From Sphingopyxis panaciterrae (lineage in GTDB: Bacteria > Pseudomonadota > Alphaproteobacteria > Sphingomonadales > Sphingomonadaceae), in NCBI RefSeq assembly GCF_011762125.1, contig NZ_JAASQN010000002.1:124001-188000 (forward strand): a DNA stretch of 64,000 bases, in the 5' to 3' direction. This document shows, in pieces, positions 33,026 to 40,785 of this stretch. Below the pieces are notes generated by a model that worked only from the letters and a program-made list of their open reading frames with translations, was not told where the DNA came from and made no database searches. Every line of letters begins with the position of its first letter. Within the stretch, counting starts at the first letter, position 1. A program made the translations under genes and the position numbers.

Positions 33026-34030
33026 ATGATGAAAGCGCCTGTGGGGGGCGTGCAGCATCAGCTTCGCATAACCTCCTCTTCAGCCATCGCCCTGCTCGCC
33101 GCCCTCGCGCTGCCGATGCAGGCGCATGCCGCCGGCACGCGCGCCGGCTCGACGATCAGCAACACCGCGAGTGCCAGCTTCGATGCCGGCGGCGGAACGC
33201 AGACGATCGATTCGAACAAGGTCGACCTGCTCGTCGACGAGCTGCTCGACGTCACGGTCGATTCGAGCAACCCCGCCGACGTACCGACCACGCCCGGCGC
33301 GACCAGCCAGGTTCTGACCTTTTCGGTGACGAACAACGGCAACGGCCAGGAGGCCTTCGTGCTCAGCACGATCGCCAATGGCGGCGGCGACCAATATGAT
33401 CCGACGGTCACCCAAATCTATCTCGACAATGGCGACGGTGTCTTCGACGCCGGCACCGACACGCTCTACACGCCCGGTTCCAACAATCCGGCCCTGAATC
33501 CCGACCAGAGCATCACCGTCTTCGTTATCGCGACGACGCCCGGCACGGTGAGCGACGGCAATCGCGGCATCGTCAGCCTTGTCGCGGCAGCCGAGACCGG
33601 AACCGGCGCGCCGGGACGGAGCTTCGCCGGCAAGGGTGAAGGCGGCGGCGATGCGGTGGTCGGCTCCACCGGCGCCGACGGCCAGGACAATGGCGCGTTC
33701 GTCGTGTCGGCCGCCACGGTGACGCTCGTCAAATCGGCCGTCGTCGCCGATCCCTTCAGCGGGACCGAGCCGGTTCCGGGTGCGACCATCACCTATACGA
33801 TCACCGCGACGGTGGCGGGCAGCGGATCGCTGAACGGGCTGACCATCTCCGACAACATCCCGGCGAACACCAGCTATGTGCCGGGTTCGCTGAAGCTCGG
33901 CAGCACGGCGCTGTCCGACGCCACCGACGGCGACGCCGGCAATTACGACGGGACCAAGGTCGCGGTGTCGCTCGGCACCATTGCGGGCGGCCAGACCCGC
34001 GCCGTCACGTTCCAAGCCAAGATCAACTGA
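33026..34030 (+). CDS. Exported DUF11 repeat protein A
   Basis: 334-residue protein with a signal peptide (cleavage after AHA near residue 36). The mature N-terminus has the module GSTISNTASASFDAGGG followed by a short strand (SNKVDLLVDELLDV) that recurs in the two related genes downstream. The C-terminal ~100 residues are a DUF11/conserved-repeat beta-sandwich (VTLVKSAVV...YTITATVAG...LTISDNIPANTSYVPGSL). It is extracytoplasmic by prediction, with no anchor seen. First gene of a four-gene operon; function unknown. Confidence 0.82.
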   Translation: MMKAPVGGVQHQLRITSSSAIALLAALALPMQAHAAGTRAGSTISNTASASFDAGGGTQTIDSNKVDLLVDELLDVTVDSSNPADVPTTPGATSQVLTFSVTNNGNGQEAFVLSTIANGGGDQYDPTVTQIYLDNGDGVFDAGTDTLYTPGSNNPALNPDQSITVFVIATTPGTVSDGNRGIVSLVAAAETGTGAPGRSFAGKGEGGGDAVVGSTGADGQDNGAFVVSAATVTLVKSAVVADPFSGTEPVPGATITYTITATVAGSGSLNGLTISDNIPANTSYVPGSLKLGSTALSDATDGDAGNYDGTKVAVSLGTIAGGQTRAVTFQAKIN

Positions 34031-34041
34031 TGGAGATGCGC

Positions 34042-34506
34042 ATGCGTACCGCTCTTTTCCTGATTCTCGCCGCGCTGATGCCCGGGCAGGCGCTCGCCGC
34101 CAACCAGGTGGCGCTCGACAACAGCGTGTTCATCGAACGCGTCATGACCGATGCCGCCGGCAAACAGCGCGTGCTGCTCGAGGAACCGAAGGTCGTCGTT
34201 CCCGGCGACAAGCTCCTCTTTGTGCTCAACTATCGCAACGCCGGGGCGCAGCCCGCCGACAAGTTCGTGATCACCAATCCGCTACCCTCGGCGGTCCGCT
34301 TCGCCGATGCCGGCGATACGCAGCCGCTCGTTTCGATCGACGGCGGCCGGGCGTGGGGCCGGCTTGGTGAACTGACCGTCCAGCAAGCCGACGGCACCCG
34401 CCGCGCGGCGCAGCCCGCCGATGTCACGCACATCCGCTGGGCGTTCCAGAAACCCATTCCCGCCGGCGCAAGCGGCAAGCTCATGTTCCGGGGGGTCGTC
34501 AAATAG
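34042..34506 (+). CDS. Exported hypothetical protein of the DUF11 operon
   Basis: 154-residue protein with a signal peptide (MRTALFLILAALMPGQALAA). The mature part is a single beta-sandwich-like domain with the DUF11-type phrase LFVLNYRNAGAQPADKFVIT followed by NPLPSAVRFADAG. It lacks the N-terminal ISNTA module of its neighbours. A GGAG ribosome site lies six bases before the ATG at 34042; another ATG at 34030 overlaps the previous stop (TGATG) and would add four residues. Confidence 0.8.
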   Translation: MRTALFLILAALMPGQALAANQVALDNSVFIERVMTDAAGKQRVLLEEPKVVVPGDKLLFVLNYRNAGAQPADKFVITNPLPSAVRFADAGDTQPLVSIDGGRAWGRLGELTVQQADGTRRAAQPADVTHIRWAFQKPIPAGASGKLMFRGVVK

Positions 34507-34580
34507 ACGCGTAAGGCAAACCGCTTAACGGTCGCCAGCGGTGGGGAAATGGCGACCAACCAAAGCCTAGGAGCTCAGCT

Positions 34581-35645
34581 ATGACCAGCAAGCTGACTTA
34601 TATGGGCACCATCGGTCTGGCGGCGTTTTCATGCGTCGCTGCCGCCCCGGCCTTCGCCGCGGCGGGAACGACCGCGGGTACCCAAATCATCAATACTGCC
34701 ACCGTCAACTATCAGGTCGGCGGCATCGCACAGGGTTCGCAGAACGCATCGAACACGATCATGGTCGACCGCAGGGTCGAACTGCTGGTCGAAGAGGACG
34801 GCACGACGACGACCGAAGTGTCGCCGGGCCAGACCAATGCGGTCACGACCTTTCGCCTGACCAACAAGACGAACGAAATACTCGACTTCGCGCTGACGGC
34901 GTCGCAGATCAGCGGCATCGCGGCCGCGCATGGCGGCACCGACTCGTTTGACGTCACCAATGTCCGGATTTATCGGGACAATCCGGCAGGCGCGGGCGTC
35001 GGGACGTATGACGCCAGCGATACGCTCGTCGCCTATGCCGATGAAGTGGGGATCGATGCCTCGATCCGCCTGTTCGTCGTCGCGGACATTCCCGCAGGCC
35101 TTGGCACCAATGCCGTCGCCGGGGTCCGCCTGACCGCCACCGCCGCCGAGGGCGGCACGGCGGGATCGCCGGGTGCGCTTGTCACCCAGACGGCTGGCGC
35201 CAATACCGCCGGCAAGGACACGGTATTCGCCGACGCGGCAGGCGTCACCGACGCCGCGCGCGACGGTTCACACAGCGACGACGACGATTATACCGTCAAG
35301 ACGGCGACGCTGACGGTGACGAAAAGCAGCCGCGTCGTTTCCGACCTGGTGAACGGTACGAGCAATCCGAAGATGATTCCGGGGGCGGTGATCGAATATT
35401 GCATCGCCGTCGCCAACGCGACCGGCGGCGTCGCCGCCACATCGGTCGCGATTACCGATAGCGTGCCGACCCAGCTGACGTTCGTCCCGAGCACGATCAA
35501 GCTCAACGGCACCGTCACCGGCACGACGTGCGATTTCAACGGGACGGCGGGGGGCAGCTATGCGGCGCCGGTGGTGTCGGGAACGCTCCCGACCATCAAC
35601 CCGGGGCAGACGCTGACGCTCGTCTTCCAGGCTACGGTCAACTGA
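34581..35645 (+). CDS. Exported DUF11 repeat protein B
   Basis: 354-residue paralogue of protein A. Signal peptide to about residue 27 (PAFAA). Mature start GTTAGTQIINTATVNYQVGG carries the same I-x-N-T-A module, then the RRVELLVEEDG strand. The C-terminus is a DUF11 domain (LTVTKSSRVV...VIEYCIAVANATGG...ITDSVPTQLTFVPSTIKLNG, described in parts) with two cysteines. A good AGGAG site precedes the ATG. Same operon; function unknown. Confidence 0.82.
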   Translation: MTSKLTYMGTIGLAAFSCVAAAPAFAAAGTTAGTQIINTATVNYQVGGIAQGSQNASNTIMVDRRVELLVEEDGTTTTEVSPGQTNAVTTFRLTNKTNEILDFALTASQISGIAAAHGGTDSFDVTNVRIYRDNPAGAGVGTYDASDTLVAYADEVGIDASIRLFVVADIPAGLGTNAVAGVRLTATAAEGGTAGSPGALVTQTAGANTAGKDTVFADAAGVTDAARDGSHSDDDDYTVKTATLTVTKSSRVVSDLVNGTSNPKMIPGAVIEYCIAVANATGGVAATSVAITDSVPTQLTFVPSTIKLNGTVTGTTCDFNGTAGGSYAAPVVSGTLPTINPGQTLTLVFQATVN

Positions 35646-35712
35646 TCGGAAACGGACGGAGCAGCGAGTTTTCCGGTGCAATCCGGTAACCGCTGCTCCC
35701 TTCGGCGCTGAC

Positions 35713-38700
35713 ATGCGGCTGTCTCCGAAACATCTCGGCCACGTGACCGCCCTGGTCGCGGCAGCGATGCTGCCCGCGGCAGGCGCAAGCGCGCAGGTCA
35801 TTTCCAACACCGCTTCGGCCGCGTGGAACGGCGGCGCGGGCCAGGTGCTGTCGAATCGCGTCGACTTGACGGTTCGCCAACGCCCGCCCGAACCGCCGCG
35901 GATCACGACCTATCGCCTTGGGGAACAAGGCGCCAAATCGGCGCCGGTGGTTCCCACGCAATGCGACGGCAGCGATGGTGGCAAGCTCATCCAGCTCGCT
36001 GGACCCTATGCCGGCATCGCCACGACCCCCGCCGCCTTGCAGAGCAGCGACAGCTTTCGCGCCGGCGAAGTGGTGGTGGTCGGGGTGGTCCTCGCCTCGG
36101 CAAACCATGATCCGCAGCAGCGCGATGCCTTGCCCGTCACCCTCGCACTCGAAAATGGCGACCGCGAACAGATCACGCTGACCGAAACCGCGGCGAACAG
36201 CGGCGAATTCATCGGCATCATCAACACGATCGGCGTCCCGCCCGCAATCGTCGCGGGCGATTGCCGGCTGTCGGTGACCCCCGGCACGCCGGTCCGCGTG
36301 CAGGTCAGCGACCGCGCCGACGCCAGCCTCGTTGCGCTGGCGACCCTCAATTTCCTCGTCGACCCGTTCGGTATCGTCTTCGACAGCGGCGACGGTGCGC
36401 CCGTCGCGGGCAGCCGCGTGACAATCGTCGACGCCGCGACCGGCCAGCCGGCCCAGGTGTTCGGCGACGACGGCGTGTCCGCTTATCCGTCGAGCGTCGT
36501 CACCGGCCAGAGCGTCCGCGACGCGGGCGGCACAACCTATGATTTCCCGCCGGGCGATTATCGCTTCCCGTTCGTCGCCCCCGGCACCTACCGCCTCGTC
36601 GTCGAGCCGCCGGCGCCCTATACCGCACCGTCGAAATCGAGCGCGGCCGACCTTGCCGGCCTCCGCCGCCCCGACGACGGCCTGCCCTTCGATATCACCG
36701 GGGCCAGCTATGGCAACGCCTTCACGCTGAACAGCCCCGCGCCCGTGCGCGTCGACGTTCCTGTCGACCAGCCCGGTCTGCCGTTGATCCTCCGCAAGAC
36801 CACCTCGACCGCGGTCGCGGTGCCCGGCGACGTCATCCAATACCGGATCGAAGTCGCCAATCGCGACACGCGTCGCAATACGGGCGCGGTGACCGTGCGC
36901 GACGTCCTGCCCGCCGGCATGCGCCTGCGCGCGAACACCGTCCGCGCCGACGGCGTGTCGATCACCCCCGATGTCGCGGCGAATGGCCGCGAGTTTGCCG
37001 TCACGCTGCCCGGCGTCGCGGCGGCGCGCTCGGTCCTGCTCACCTATCTGGCCGAAGTCGTCGTCTCGGCGCAGCCTGGCAACGCGCTCAACCGCGCCAC
37101 CGCGACCGACAATCGCGGCACTTCGAGCAATATTGCCGAAGCGACGATCGCGATCAAACGCGACCAGCTCGGCGACCGGATGACGATCATCGGCCGCATC
37201 GCCGACGGCGGCTGCGGCGTCGATCCCGGCAAGGCAGCAGGCATCGCCGGCGTGCGCGTGATGCTGCAAGACGGCAGCTACACCGTCACCGACGAAGGCG
37301 GCCGCTATCATTTCGAAGGCGTCCGCCCGGGCATCCATGTCGTGCAGATCGACCCGTCGACGTTGCCGCTCGACCGCGAGGCGGTCGATTGCGCGCGCTC
37401 GACGCAAAGCGCGGGCAGCGCAATATCGCGCTTCGTCGAAGGCCGCGGCGGCGCGTTGAAGCGCGCCGACTTCCGCGCCGTCGCCAGCACACCACGCGCG
37501 GCGCCCAAAACCGGCGCCATCTCCGCGCCGATCATACTCAGCGACCAGGAAGCCGCCGGTGCGGGCCGCGACTGGCTGGCGGGCGAAACGCCGGGCACCG
37601 GCTGGATATTCCCCGGCACCGACCACAATCCACGCTCGAAATCGGTGCGTGCCATTGTCAAGCACCTGCCCGGCCAGACCGTCACCTTGCGCGTCAACGG
37701 CAAGCCCGTCGACGACATGACCTATGAAGGCGAACGCAAGTCGGCGGATGGCAGCGTCATTGTCGGCATGTGGCGCGGCATCGAAATCCGCGAAGGCGAA
37801 AACCGCCTCAGCGCCGAGATAAAGGATGCGAGCGGCGTTACGATCCAAACCATCGACCGCGCCGTGCATTATTCGATCACGCCGATGCGCGCGACGCTGA
37901 TCCGCGAGCGGTCGGTGCTGATCGCCGACGGCGTGACGCGCCCCATGCTCGCCGTTCGCCTCACCGACCGCGACGGCAAGCCGGTGCGCAGCGGACTGAC
38001 CGGCGATTTCAGCGTTCCCGCCCCTTATTATCCGGCGATCGAGGCCGATGCGCAGCAGGCCCGCCAGCTCGCGGGCCTCGAACGCGCCCGCCCGATCTGG
38101 AAGATCGATGGCGACGACGGCATCGCTTATATCGAACTCGAACCGACGACCGCGTCGGGCACGCTGGCAATGGATTTCACCTTCCGCGACGACAAGGTCG
38201 AACGCAAGCAGACGGTCGAGACCTGGCTCGATCCGGGTAATCGCCCGTGGACCGTCGTCGGTTTTGCCGCGGGCACGCTCGGTTATAATACGCTCGACGA
38301 CCGGATGGAGCCGGTGGCGGAAACGCTGGACGACCTCAGCGCCGACGCGCGGCTCGCGCTCTATGCCAAGGGCCGGGTGCGTGGCAAATGGCTGATGACG
38401 CTCGCCTACGACAGCGACAAGGACAAGGACGATGCGCGTTTCGGCGGCGTCATCGACCCGCGCGCTTATTATACCATCTACGCCGACCGCAACGAGACCC
38501 GCTACGACGCGGCGTCGGTGCGCAAACTCTATCTTCGCCTCGAACGCCCGCAATTCTATGCGATGTTCGGCGATATCGAGACGGGCATTTCAGAACCGCA
38601 GCTCGCCCGTTACCAGCGCGCGCTCAACGGCGGCAAGGCCGAATATCGCGGCCGCAACCTCGCCGCGACCGCCTTCGCCGCCGACACACCCTATCGTTTC

Positions 38701-40785
38701 CGCCGCGACGAGATCCAGGGCAATGGCCTGACCGGCCCGTACCAGCTCGGCGCAAAGGATATATTGCCGAACAGCGAACGCATCGTCATCGAAACGCGCG
38801 ACCGGCTGCACAGCGAGCGGATTGTCGAAACCGTCACGCTGACGCGTCATGTCGACTATGACATCGACTATCTCGCCGGCACGCTCCGTTTCCGCGACCC
38901 GGTGCTCAGCCGCTCGTCCAGCCTCGACCCGAAGTTCATCGTCGCCGAATATGAAGTCGACGGCGTCGGCCAGCGCGTCCTCAACGCCGGCGGCCGCGTC
39001 AGCTACCGGTCGAATGACGAAAAATTGCGTGTCGGCGCCACGCTGATCCACGACGAAGACGGTAATGCCAAGACCAATCTCGGCGGGGTCGACGCGCGCT
39101 ACCGCCCCGGTATCGACACCGAAATCCGCGCCGAAGTCGCGGTGAGCGACGCGAAAGCCCAGAATGGCAGCCCCGCCGCCACAACCGGCAGCGCCAAGGC
39201 CTGGCTGATCGAGGCCGAGCATCACAGCAGCAAGGCCGATCTCCTCGCCTATGTCCGCGAGCGCGAGACGGGTTTCGGTGCGGGCCAGCTCAATCGCGGC
39301 GAGGACGGCACGCGCAAGTTCGGGTTCGATGCGCGGCTGCGCGCCACCCGCGCCCTCTCGGTCACCGGCAGCGCCTGGCAGGAGGATTATCTCGATGCCG
39401 GATCGCGCCGCCGCGCCGCACGGATCCTCGCCGAATATGACAATGGCACGACCGTCGGCCGCGCCGGCCTGACCCACGCCGACGACCGGCTCAGCGACGG
39501 CACCCGCAACCGGTCGAACCTCGTCCAGTTCGGCGCGACACAGCGGCTGTTCAATAAACGCCTCGAACTCGACGCGCAGACCGAATTCGCCCTCGGCGGC
39601 AAGGATGCGAGCGTCGATTTCCCCACCCGCCACCGCCTCGGCGCGCGCTTCGCGATCACCCGCGACGTCAATCTGGTCGGCAGCTACGAGATCGCCGATG
39701 GCGATACGATCAAGGCGCGCACCGCCCGGCTCGGCTTCGACCTTGCCCCGTGGGCCGGCGCGCGGCTGCTCGCCACCGCGAACCAGCAGGACATCGGCGA
39801 ATATGGCCCGCGCAGCTTCGCGGCCTATGGTCTGTCGCAGTCGCTGAAGCTTGGCCAGCATCTGTCGGTCGACGTCTCGGTCGACGGCAACCGGACCCTC
39901 GGCGGCATTCGCGCGAAAGATGTGCTCAATGCCGACCAGCCGGTCGCATCGGGCGGCTTCCTCGGCGCCGGCGGCACCCTGACCGAGGATTTCCTCGCGA
40001 TCAGCACCGGCGCCACCTGGCGCGCCGACCGCTGGACGCTGACCGGACGCGCCGAATATCGCGATGGCGAGCTCGCCAATCGCTACGGCCTGACGCTCGG
40101 GGGCTTACGCCAACTCGGCGAAGGCCGTGCGCTCGGCGCGCTCTTCACCTATGCCAAGGCGAGCGGCGCCGGCACGACGCCGACGACCGAGGTGATCCAG
40201 TTCGAAATGAGCTGGGCGCACCGCCCCGCGGATTCGCGGATTTCCTGGCTCAACAAGAGCGAGTTCCGTTCGGACAAGGTCCGTGACGCGATCGCGGGTC
40301 AGGCCGGACCGATCGGAGGCCCCTCGCTGACGATCGACGGCGACGCGACAAGCCGTCGCCTGCTCAACAGCCTGTCGGTCAACTGGACGCCGCTCGGCGA
40401 TCGCGGGTTCGGCGAAGGCTGGTACGAGCGCGCCGAAATCGGCTTCTTCTGGGGCACGCGCTATAATTTCGACCGTTTCGGCGCCGATGATGTCAAAGGC
40501 TGGTCGAACCTGATCGGCGCCGACTTCCGCTTCAACCTCGGCGAGCATGTCGATGTCGGCGCGTCGGGCACCGTGCGCGTCGGCACCGATGCCGACACCG
40601 TCAGTTGGGCGGGTGGCCCGACGGTGACGCTCGCGCCGATGACGAATGCGAACATCACCTTCGGCTATAATTTCGCCGGCTTCCACGACCGCGATTTCGA
40701 AGATGCACGCTATGCCCGTTCGGGCGCCTATGTGACCTTCAAGCTGAAGTTCGACCAGACGAGCTTTCAGGGGCTGGGGCTGTAA
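35713..40785 (+). CDS. Very large exported protein: DUF11 and SdrD-B-like domains plus C-terminal outer-membrane barrel
   Basis: 1690 residues with a signal peptide (cleavage near 28). Domains in order: an ISNTASAAWNGGAG module (about 30-45) as in the two smaller operon proteins; beta-sandwich regions; a DUF11 domain (about 355-470, LRKTTSTAVAVPGDVIQYRI); a carboxypeptidase-regulatory/SdrD-B-like domain (about 486-560, GRIADGGCGVDPGKAAGIAG); further sandwich domains; from about 845 to the end, repeated amphipathic strands with aromatic girdles (GYNTLDDRMEP, RGKWLMTLAYDSD, FAMFGD-like stretches) ending VTFKLKF, as in an outer-membrane barrel. It may anchor or export the smaller proteins; this is inference. 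Confidence 0.83.
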   Translation: MRLSPKHLGHVTALVAAAMLPAAGASAQVISNTASAAWNGGAGQVLSNRVDLTVRQRPPEPPRITTYRLGEQGAKSAPVVPTQCDGSDGGKLIQLAGPYAGIATTPAALQSSDSFRAGEVVVVGVVLASANHDPQQRDALPVTLALENGDREQITLTETAANSGEFIGIINTIGVPPAIVAGDCRLSVTPGTPVRVQVSDRADASLVALATLNFLVDPFGIVFDSGDGAPVAGSRVTIVDAATGQPAQVFGDDGVSAYPSSVVTGQSVRDAGGTTYDFPPGDYRFPFVAPGTYRLVVEPPAPYTAPSKSSAADLAGLRRPDDGLPFDITGASYGNAFTLNSPAPVRVDVPVDQPGLPLILRKTTSTAVAVPGDVIQYRIEVANRDTRRNTGAVTVRDVLPAGMRLRANTVRADGVSITPDVAANGREFAVTLPGVAAARSVLLTYLAEVVVSAQPGNALNRATATDNRGTSSNIAEATIAIKRDQLGDRMTIIGRIADGGCGVDPGKAAGIAGVRVMLQDGSYTVTDEGGRYHFEGVRPGIHVVQIDPSTLPLDREAVDCARSTQSAGSAISRFVEGRGGALKRADFRAVASTPRAAPKTGAISAPIILSDQEAAGAGRDWLAGETPGTGWIFPGTDHNPRSKSVRAIVKHLPGQTVTLRVNGKPVDDMTYEGERKSADGSVIVGMWRGIEIREGENRLSAEIKDASGVTIQTIDRAVHYSITPMRATLIRERSVLIADGVTRPMLAVRLTDRDGKPVRSGLTGDFSVPAPYYPAIEADAQQARQLAGLERARPIWKIDGDDGIAYIELEPTTASGTLAMDFTFRDDKVERKQTVETWLDPGNRPWTVVGFAAGTLGYNTLDDRMEPVAETLDDLSADARLALYAKGRVRGKWLMTLAYDSDKDKDDARFGGVIDPRAYYTIYADRNETRYDAASVRKLYLRLERPQFYAMFGDIETGISEPQLARYQRALNGGKAEYRGRNLAATAFAADTPYRFRRDEIQGNGLTGPYQLGAKDILPNSERIVIETRDRLHSERIVETVTLTRHVDYDIDYLAGTLRFRDPVLSRSSSLDPKFIVAEYEVDGVGQRVLNAGGRVSYRSNDEKLRVGATLIHDEDGNAKTNLGGVDARYRPGIDTEIRAEVAVSDAKAQNGSPAATTGSAKAWLIEAEHHSSKADLLAYVRERETGFGAGQLNRGEDGTRKFGFDARLRATRALSVTGSAWQEDYLDAGSRRRAARILAEYDNGTTVGRAGLTHADDRLSDGTRNRSNLVQFGATQRLFNKRLELDAQTEFALGGKDASVDFPTRHRLGARFAITRDVNLVGSYEIADGDTIKARTARLGFDLAPWAGARLLATANQQDIGEYGPRSFAAYGLSQSLKLGQHLSVDVSVDGNRTLGGIRAKDVLNADQPVASGGFLGAGGTLTEDFLAISTGATWRADRWTLTGRAEYRDGELANRYGLTLGGLRQLGEGRALGALFTYAKASGAGTTPTTEVIQFEMSWAHRPADSRISWLNKSEFRSDKVRDAIAGQAGPIGGPSLTIDGDATSRRLLNSLSVNWTPLGDRGFGEGWYERAEIGFFWGTRYNFDRFGADDVKGWSNLIGADFRFNLGEHVDVGASGTVRVGTDADTVSWAGGPTVTLAPMTNANITFGYNFAGFHDRDFEDARYARSGAYVTFKLKFDQTSFQGLGL

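Follow-up and report, generated by a model that had tools for sequence, protein, structure and literature searches.

In the 64,000-nucleotide stretch of Sphingopyxis panaciterrae DNA analysed here, referred to as the window, an operon of four genes, A to D, is encoded on the forward strand and flanked on both sides by minus-strand open reading frames (ORFs), as seen from the ORF list. A (33026–34030, +) encodes 334 amino acids (aa) and B (34030–34506, +) 158 aa, followed by C (34581–35645, +) with 354 aa and D (35713–40785, +) with 1690 aa, in agreement with an earlier sequence-only reading that had called the group a four-gene operon of exported proteins. That reading had also assigned DUF11-like domains to all four proteins, which holds for A, C and D, whose Pfam DUF11 (PF01345) scores of 28.1, 26.2 and 34.1 bits exceed the gathering score of 24.6, while B stays below it at 17.5 bits. 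The matches cover residues 245–333 of A (profile positions 9–84 of 114), 260–353 of C (8–84 of 114) and, weakly, 55–107 of B. C is a paralogue of A (33% identity, E-value 2e-26), and sequence comparison revealed a short N-terminal or DUF11 stretch common to A, C and D. All six DUF11 matches of the genome to which the window belongs (G000) sit in A, C, D, a B-like gene or E1, a gene of a fifth type described below. PDB sequence searches with D and with A gave no significant match, and PHROGs returned no match for A, B or C. From the features presented below, A and C appear to be two pilin-like subunits, each with a donor and an acceptor, B an acceptor-only candidate chaperone or cap and D a putative base with a donor N-terminus, sandwich domains and a C-terminal barrel-like region.

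Conservation was followed in two overlapping sets consisting mainly of near relatives. The 30-locus set comprises the window and 29 loci from 27 other genomes, two of which (G019 and G143) contribute two loci each, with G130 (a fragment on a 10 kb contig), G012 (a split variant) and G132 (a 96-residue match) excluded. The 80-locus set contains the best 80 of 574 confirmed stretches among the matches listed. Alignment A1 was made without L057 and alignment A2 without L037, L057, L079, L088, L089, L098 and further copies that were identical or short.

Candidate donor and acceptor sequences

The DUF11 match of A and C begins at profile position 8–9 and stops at position 84 of 114, because the proteins themselves end there. 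The missing end includes the I/V-x-N-x-A strand of complete copies, and the same stretch begins the mature forms of A, C and D. This stretch is the I-x-N-T-A module which the sequence-only reading had found in three genes, and it lies behind what by eye resembles a Sec signal peptide, as ISNTASASF from residue 44 of A, IINTATVNY from residue 36 of C and ISNTASAAW from residue 30 of D. While the module was correctly described as common to these proteins, its role had been missed: judged from the sequence, it is the missing end of the DUF11 (CLIPPER) domain and corresponds to the part that is absent from the C-termini of A, C, B and E. We refer to these N-terminal stretches as donors and to the shortened C-terminal domains as acceptors. 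The predicted donor hairpin of A (33131–33232, +) comprises mature residues 1–34 with Asn46, the donor stretch of C (34662–34769, +) residues ~28–63 with Asn38 and that of D (35794–35880, +) residues ~28–56 with Asn32. The acceptor domains lie at 33713–34027 (+) in A (residues 230–334, Lys236 and Asp276) and at 35304–35642 (+) in C (residues 242–354, Lys248 and Asp293), and D bears a donor and no open acceptor.

In the crystal structure of a CLIPPER domain (9IFR), Lys715 and Asn806 are bonded beside Asp748 within a sandwich of nine strands, and the isopeptide bond of CnaA-like folds connects the first and the penultimate strand, according to the excerpted text of PMC12617251. Both A and C retain the Lys and the Asp of this triad without exception (30/30 loci each) but have no Asn after them, and the chains end within 0–1 (A) and 0–2 (C) residues beyond one and the same alignment column. 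The donor Asn is retained in 29 of the 30 loci for A and in all 30 for both C and D. The 80-locus set gave a similar picture, with Lys in 71/72 A and 73/73 C, Asp in 72/72 A and 73/73 C, and the donor Asn in 70/72 A (two gaps), 72/73 C and 71/80 D, where at least six of the nine gaps are copies cut by a contig end. D additionally contains an internal DUF11 domain (36787–37146, +; residues 359–478, profile positions 3–113 of 114), in which Lys362, Asp397 and Asn460 are kept in 29, 30 and 29 of the 30 loci. A complete domain with Lys, Asp and Asn in a single chain is thus found in this internal copy and not in A or C, which end before the Asn strand, so that the lost end is particular to the C-terminal copies. 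By our own count, 14–15 residues separate the last conserved aromatic or aliphatic residue from the Asn in complete copies (E1, D), and the same span would come to ~16 residues at joints of A or C and to 10 at those of D, with signal-peptide cuts that are guesses.

Fusion of donors to acceptors

Each donor stretch was joined to an acceptor and the DUF11 score was compared with that of the acceptor alone, with an internal segment attached and with a shuffled donor attached. With the Pfam profile, A scored 34.8 bits alone, 37.8, 37.9 and 37.1 bits with the donors of A, C and D, 34.5 bits with the internal segment and 36.3 bits with the shuffled donor. The corresponding values for C were 31.6 bits alone and 36.0, 36.3 and 35.2 bits with donors, against 32.5 and 30.6 bits for the controls. 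With the donor of C, E1 rose from 33.1 to 34.5 bits (control 32.4), E2, undetected both alone and as control, reached 20.1 bits and B rose from 18.0 to 25.0 bits, a gain for which no control was run. For the 30 loci, a hidden Markov model (HMM) was built from the 30 internal domains of D and the internal domains of seven of 13 E proteins, a first search pattern having matched none of the 13. The median gain of A and C acceptors was 4.9–9.1 bits, compared to 1.9–3.6 bits for shuffled donors and 0.3–0.7 bits for internal tails, and 10–17 of the 30 A and C fusions lay above the 95th percentile of the shuffles; B gained 0.3–3.0 bits with wide controls. This profile-based support for a split domain appears real but modest.

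Structure models of A and D

The AlphaFold2 model of mature A, calculated from 91 sequences, is confident (predicted local distance difference test score, pLDDT, 94.8; predicted template modelling score, pTM, 0.76) and displays an N-terminal hairpin (strands 8–19 and 22–34), middle strands and a last domain of seven strands at 195–298. Together with the two strands of the hairpin, this domain would amount to nine strands, as in CLIPPER. In VIA-align, single-domain matches of A mostly start near residue 39–40 or 193–196, and over the whole chain integrin leg domains are aligned in order (best Z 9.6, root-mean-square deviation, rmsd, 10.6 over 219 residues), which suggests that the hairpin stands apart from the two domains. 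Foldseek placed a donor-strand-complemented Saf chain (5y9h) at rank 18 (E-value 6.5e-6, template modelling score, TM-score, 0.31), behind integrins.

For D, the sequence-only reading had expected a barrel over residues 845–1690. The model of residues 600–1690 contains 32 strands of at least 10 residues at 1073–1678 and shorter ones before, so that barrel-like strands are indeed predicted, while a barrel would seem to start nearer to 940–1070; AlphaFold2, Foldseek and VIA-align together put the barrel-like strands at 38524–40746 (+; residues 938–1678, long strands from 1073). Most of the 50 Foldseek rows listed for D are outer-membrane barrels with TM-scores of at most 0.37, including SlpA, LptD, BtuB, FimD and SprA, and in VIA-align FimD (Z 12.2, rmsd 7.1, 312 residues) is tied with FhaC and porins. 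From these models, D very probably is an outer-membrane barrel.

B and E proteins

B carries an acceptor and no donor, and its acceptor is without the bonding residues: at the Lys position, Glu is found in 20/30 and 69/71 proteins of the smaller and the larger set, and at the Asp position Asn in 27/30 and 69/71. B could consequently hold the donors of A, C and D reversibly, and from its sequence pattern a donor-shielding periplasmic chaperone seems more likely than a cap, if only narrowly. Elsewhere in the genome lies a lone B-like gene (L070:8867-9358; G000:C1:1133866-1134357) of 163 aa, with B as best match (E-value 7e-18), near ORFs which by eye resemble ftsH and tilS.

A fifth gene, E, adjoins the operon in 15 of the 30 loci, in 13 cases downstream of D and in two upstream of A, and two E genes, E1 and E2, stand side by side in the genome of the window (G000:C6, ~139351–143702). 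Read by eye, all 17 E proteins have the Lys, the Asp and the cut end, and none of the 16 with a readable N-terminus has the full donor motif. In a domain scan of eight E proteins, that of L051 gave CshA_NR2 (4.9e-19) and SpaA_3, two had a P-domain, one matched Calx-beta and that of L053 had no domain match. With such N-terminal domains and a C-terminal acceptor, the predicted build of E is that of tip adhesins. One minimal E (L054:14817-15470) consists of little beyond an acceptor domain with Lys and Asp and is perhaps a minimal cap.

Gene order and distant relatives

The order A-B-C-D is conserved in 30/30 loci and in 69 of the 80, where seven of the 11 exceptions are contig-end cuts just before D and the others are L079 and L088 with disturbed starts or frames, L120 with an extra C and L123 without B. 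In L120 (5874-8080), two C genes stand in tandem, giving an operon A-B-C-C-D. Among 147 genomes of the order, D was found in 31 and A in 29, all of which also contain D, while the two D-positive genomes without an A match hold a split variant and a 96-residue match. The expectation that the small genes co-occur with the large one is therefore confirmed. Named relatives of D at 83–88% identity were nearly all from Sphingopyxis among the matches listed, and in a search of the phylum the D model matched in 55 of 398 genomes.

Related operons are also present outside the class. Of 20 stretches around distant D matches, nine contain B, pilin-like genes and D (L171, L173, L174, L176–L179, L182 and L183), L180 a pilin-like end and D, and L186 a single long D-like frame; L172 and L175 are short contigs. 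The remaining seven (L181, L184, L185 and L187–L190) are two-gene versions of D, near which no A-, B- or C-like small genes were found. The barrel region of D and its DUF11-bearing N-terminal part are separate genes in these seven and in L066, L067 and L068, often beside DUF11 proteins of 1600–3000 aa. In L066, a 448-aa protein is acceptor-only, a 792-aa protein combines an acceptor with an N-terminal ENTATI stretch, and a 740-aa protein has a donor (VVTNTASI) and no acceptor end, the barrel being encoded separately. Beyond the class as well as in L066, other proteins thus show the same apparent donor/acceptor logic.

Discussion

We consider it fairly probable, from the distribution of donors and acceptors, that the operon encodes a pilus in which split DUF11 (CLIPPER) domains complement one another by donor strands, D forming the base, A and C the shaft and E the tip, with Lys–Asn links between the subunits. 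The donor of one subunit would complete the acceptor of its neighbour, leading to a chain D(base)-[A/C]n-E(tip), to which the donor-only D and the acceptor-only E would supply the two ends. At each joint, the Lys and Asp of the acceptor would meet the donor Asn and, by analogy to the CLIPPER crystal structure, form a spontaneous Lys–Asn isopeptide bond, which would render the fibre covalent without a sortase. Placement of E at the tip, like FimH, and of D at the base follows chaperone-usher logic. B would bind donors without cross-linking them and D would anchor the fibre in the outer membrane, while export of the fibre by D, which we only infer, may also take place and is, together with the role of B, the least certain part of the model. 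The sequence-only reading had suggested joint assembly as a surface layer or fibre with D as anchor or exporter; this interpretation is partly supported, in that the fibre fits and the surface layer is not favoured.

Several observations weigh against this model. The fusion gains are modest and overlap the shuffled controls, an HMM of E domains alone left a gain near nil for C (-0.9 to 0.6 bits, compared to 2.5–6.2 bits for A), and scanning with an HMM built from the last strand was noisy, so that the fusion test was used instead. The model of D 600–1690 reaches only middling confidence (pLDDT 72.3, pTM 0.63, some stretches below 50). Ser replaces the donor Asn in A of L052 and, outside the family, of L173, Ala stands in its place in C of L123, the locus that also lacks B, and D of L177 and L179, likewise outside the family, has no clear donor motif. 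Among the E proteins, that of L042 has no readable N-terminus and E1 contains TYSNTASG near its start, of which the SNTAS part is donor-like; the E of L048 has TNNTAS at a similar place. As the E1 motif is not conserved in relatives of the P-domain type (L050, L063, L064 and L065), we take it to be where the P-domain starts, although it may be a donor. Promoter and terminator scans of the locus gave no excess over shuffles, of which the promoter result likewise speaks against the model.

Since both halves of the domain are present in each of A and C, and pilin monomers able to complement themselves in vitro are known, the N-terminal stretch could fold into the C-terminal domain of its own chain, giving monomeric, non-polymerising surface proteins. 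This is unlikely, as it leaves D as a donor without open acceptor and B and E as acceptors without clear donor, and as the hairpin of A seems to lie outside both domains in VIA-align, which matches tandem domains in order and single ones from ~39. The C-terminal domains might also be whole seven-strand relatives of DUF11, with an N-terminal motif of general nature and no joining role, a view to which the modest fusion gains would lend themselves, as would the typically seven strands of the related DUF7507 in the excerpted text of PMC12617251. DUF7507 has its Asn within the domain according to the same excerpt, whereas here the triad Lys and Asp are invariant without a following Asn, which is kept at the N-termini instead; we regard this explanation as quite improbable.

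Two further explanations centre on D. The similar C-termini of A, B, C and E and the large barrel would suit a translocon D which reads the cut C-terminal DUF11 domains as sorting signals, comparable to type 9 secretion, and SprA (6h3j, E-value 6.8e-5) is indeed among the Foldseek matches of D, with TIGR04189 touching it at an E-value of 0.071. The TIGR04189 score is 10.2 bits versus a cut-off of 200, however, and such sorting would not account for the N-terminal donors of A, C and D that match these domains, rendering this proposal improbable as an alternative, while it is in part compatible with a donor-strand pilus. A surface layer around D, as formed by SlpA in Deinococcus, we judge very improbable: SlpA structures do top the Foldseek list of D, but with TM-scores of ~0.2, VIA-align ranks SlpA below several barrels, and from the pattern of donors and acceptors one would expect a linear chain that ends in a base and a tip.

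The split-domain pilus proposed here shares features with several known systems. In CLIPPER/DUF11 fibrillar adhesins (9IFR; excerpt of PMC12617251), the domain family and the Lys, Asp and Asn isopeptide triad are alike, with the difference that the triad lies in one chain there, while here Lys and Asp are C-terminal in one protein and Asn N-terminal in another. The nearest functional parallel are the archaeal threads of Saci_0406, which, according to the excerpted text of PMC9715654, are fibres joined head to tail by donor strands, with an isopeptide-type bond between molecules and a putative cap encoded on the same transcript; comparable features are proposed for the system here. Apart from belonging to Archaea, the threads differ in their proposed bond, from Asn57 to the N-terminal Asp24 of subunit n+2, and in that the same excerpt gives no outer-membrane protein and a proposed cap without acceptor. 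Saci_0406 is absent from the PDB sequence matches of A and from the fold rows listed, and no direct comparison was made. DUF11 is further mentioned in passing (PMC12282271) or occurs in an exosporium anchor (PMC11952670, where donor strands come up among the references only), as far as the excerpts of these papers extend, and literature searches of open-licence papers returned no paper on DUF11 donor-strand fibres among the matches listed.

Chaperone-usher pili (FimA/FimD/FimH) resemble the proposed pilus in their incomplete Ig-like subunits, N-terminal donor, donor-less tip adhesin and large outer-membrane barrel; they differ in that the donor here would consist of a hairpin of two strands and be bonded covalently, and in that the base itself bears a donor. 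Membership was rejected, as neither PF00577 (usher) nor PF00345 (PapD) matched A–D at an E-value of 1. The genome has a separate chaperone-usher locus (G000:C1:667212-669938), where a 788-aa frame gives two usher matches and a PapD_N match adjoins it, so that help from that system is conceivable and it may contribute to assembly. The sortase-built pili of Gram-positive bacteria carry tip adhesins and are covalent fibres made up of isopeptide-type domains; they differ in that the linkage here would be autocatalytic at a split domain; no PF04203 match was found in the genome in a search in which three of 14 controls rang, and this assignment was rejected. Membership in the type 9 (SprA/Sov) group was rejected on the TIGR04189 score given above, whereas a SprA search of the genome, in which none of the controls rang, was uninformative.

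As a tentative and rather doubtful extension, the operon may represent a distinct class of Pseudomonadota pili, in which tandem CLIPPER adhesins, severed in the loop that precedes their two final strands, became polymerising subunits with autocatalytic Lys–Asn cross-links, a giant barrel with over 30 strands and the terminal donor hairpin serving both for their assembly and as their anchor, with B as a chaperone that shields donors, the opposite way to PapD. If the proposed pilus is correct, the known Gram-negative pili would gain a covalent fibre that needs no sortase, and natural split-domain Lys–Asn pairs would become available, of the sort that SpyTag and similar protein ligation tools were developed from. 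Each acceptor-only or donor-only protein would become a testable prediction as tip, cap, chaperone or base, and the DUF11 protein set of many Sphingomonadaceae and some other Pseudomonadota would obtain a function.

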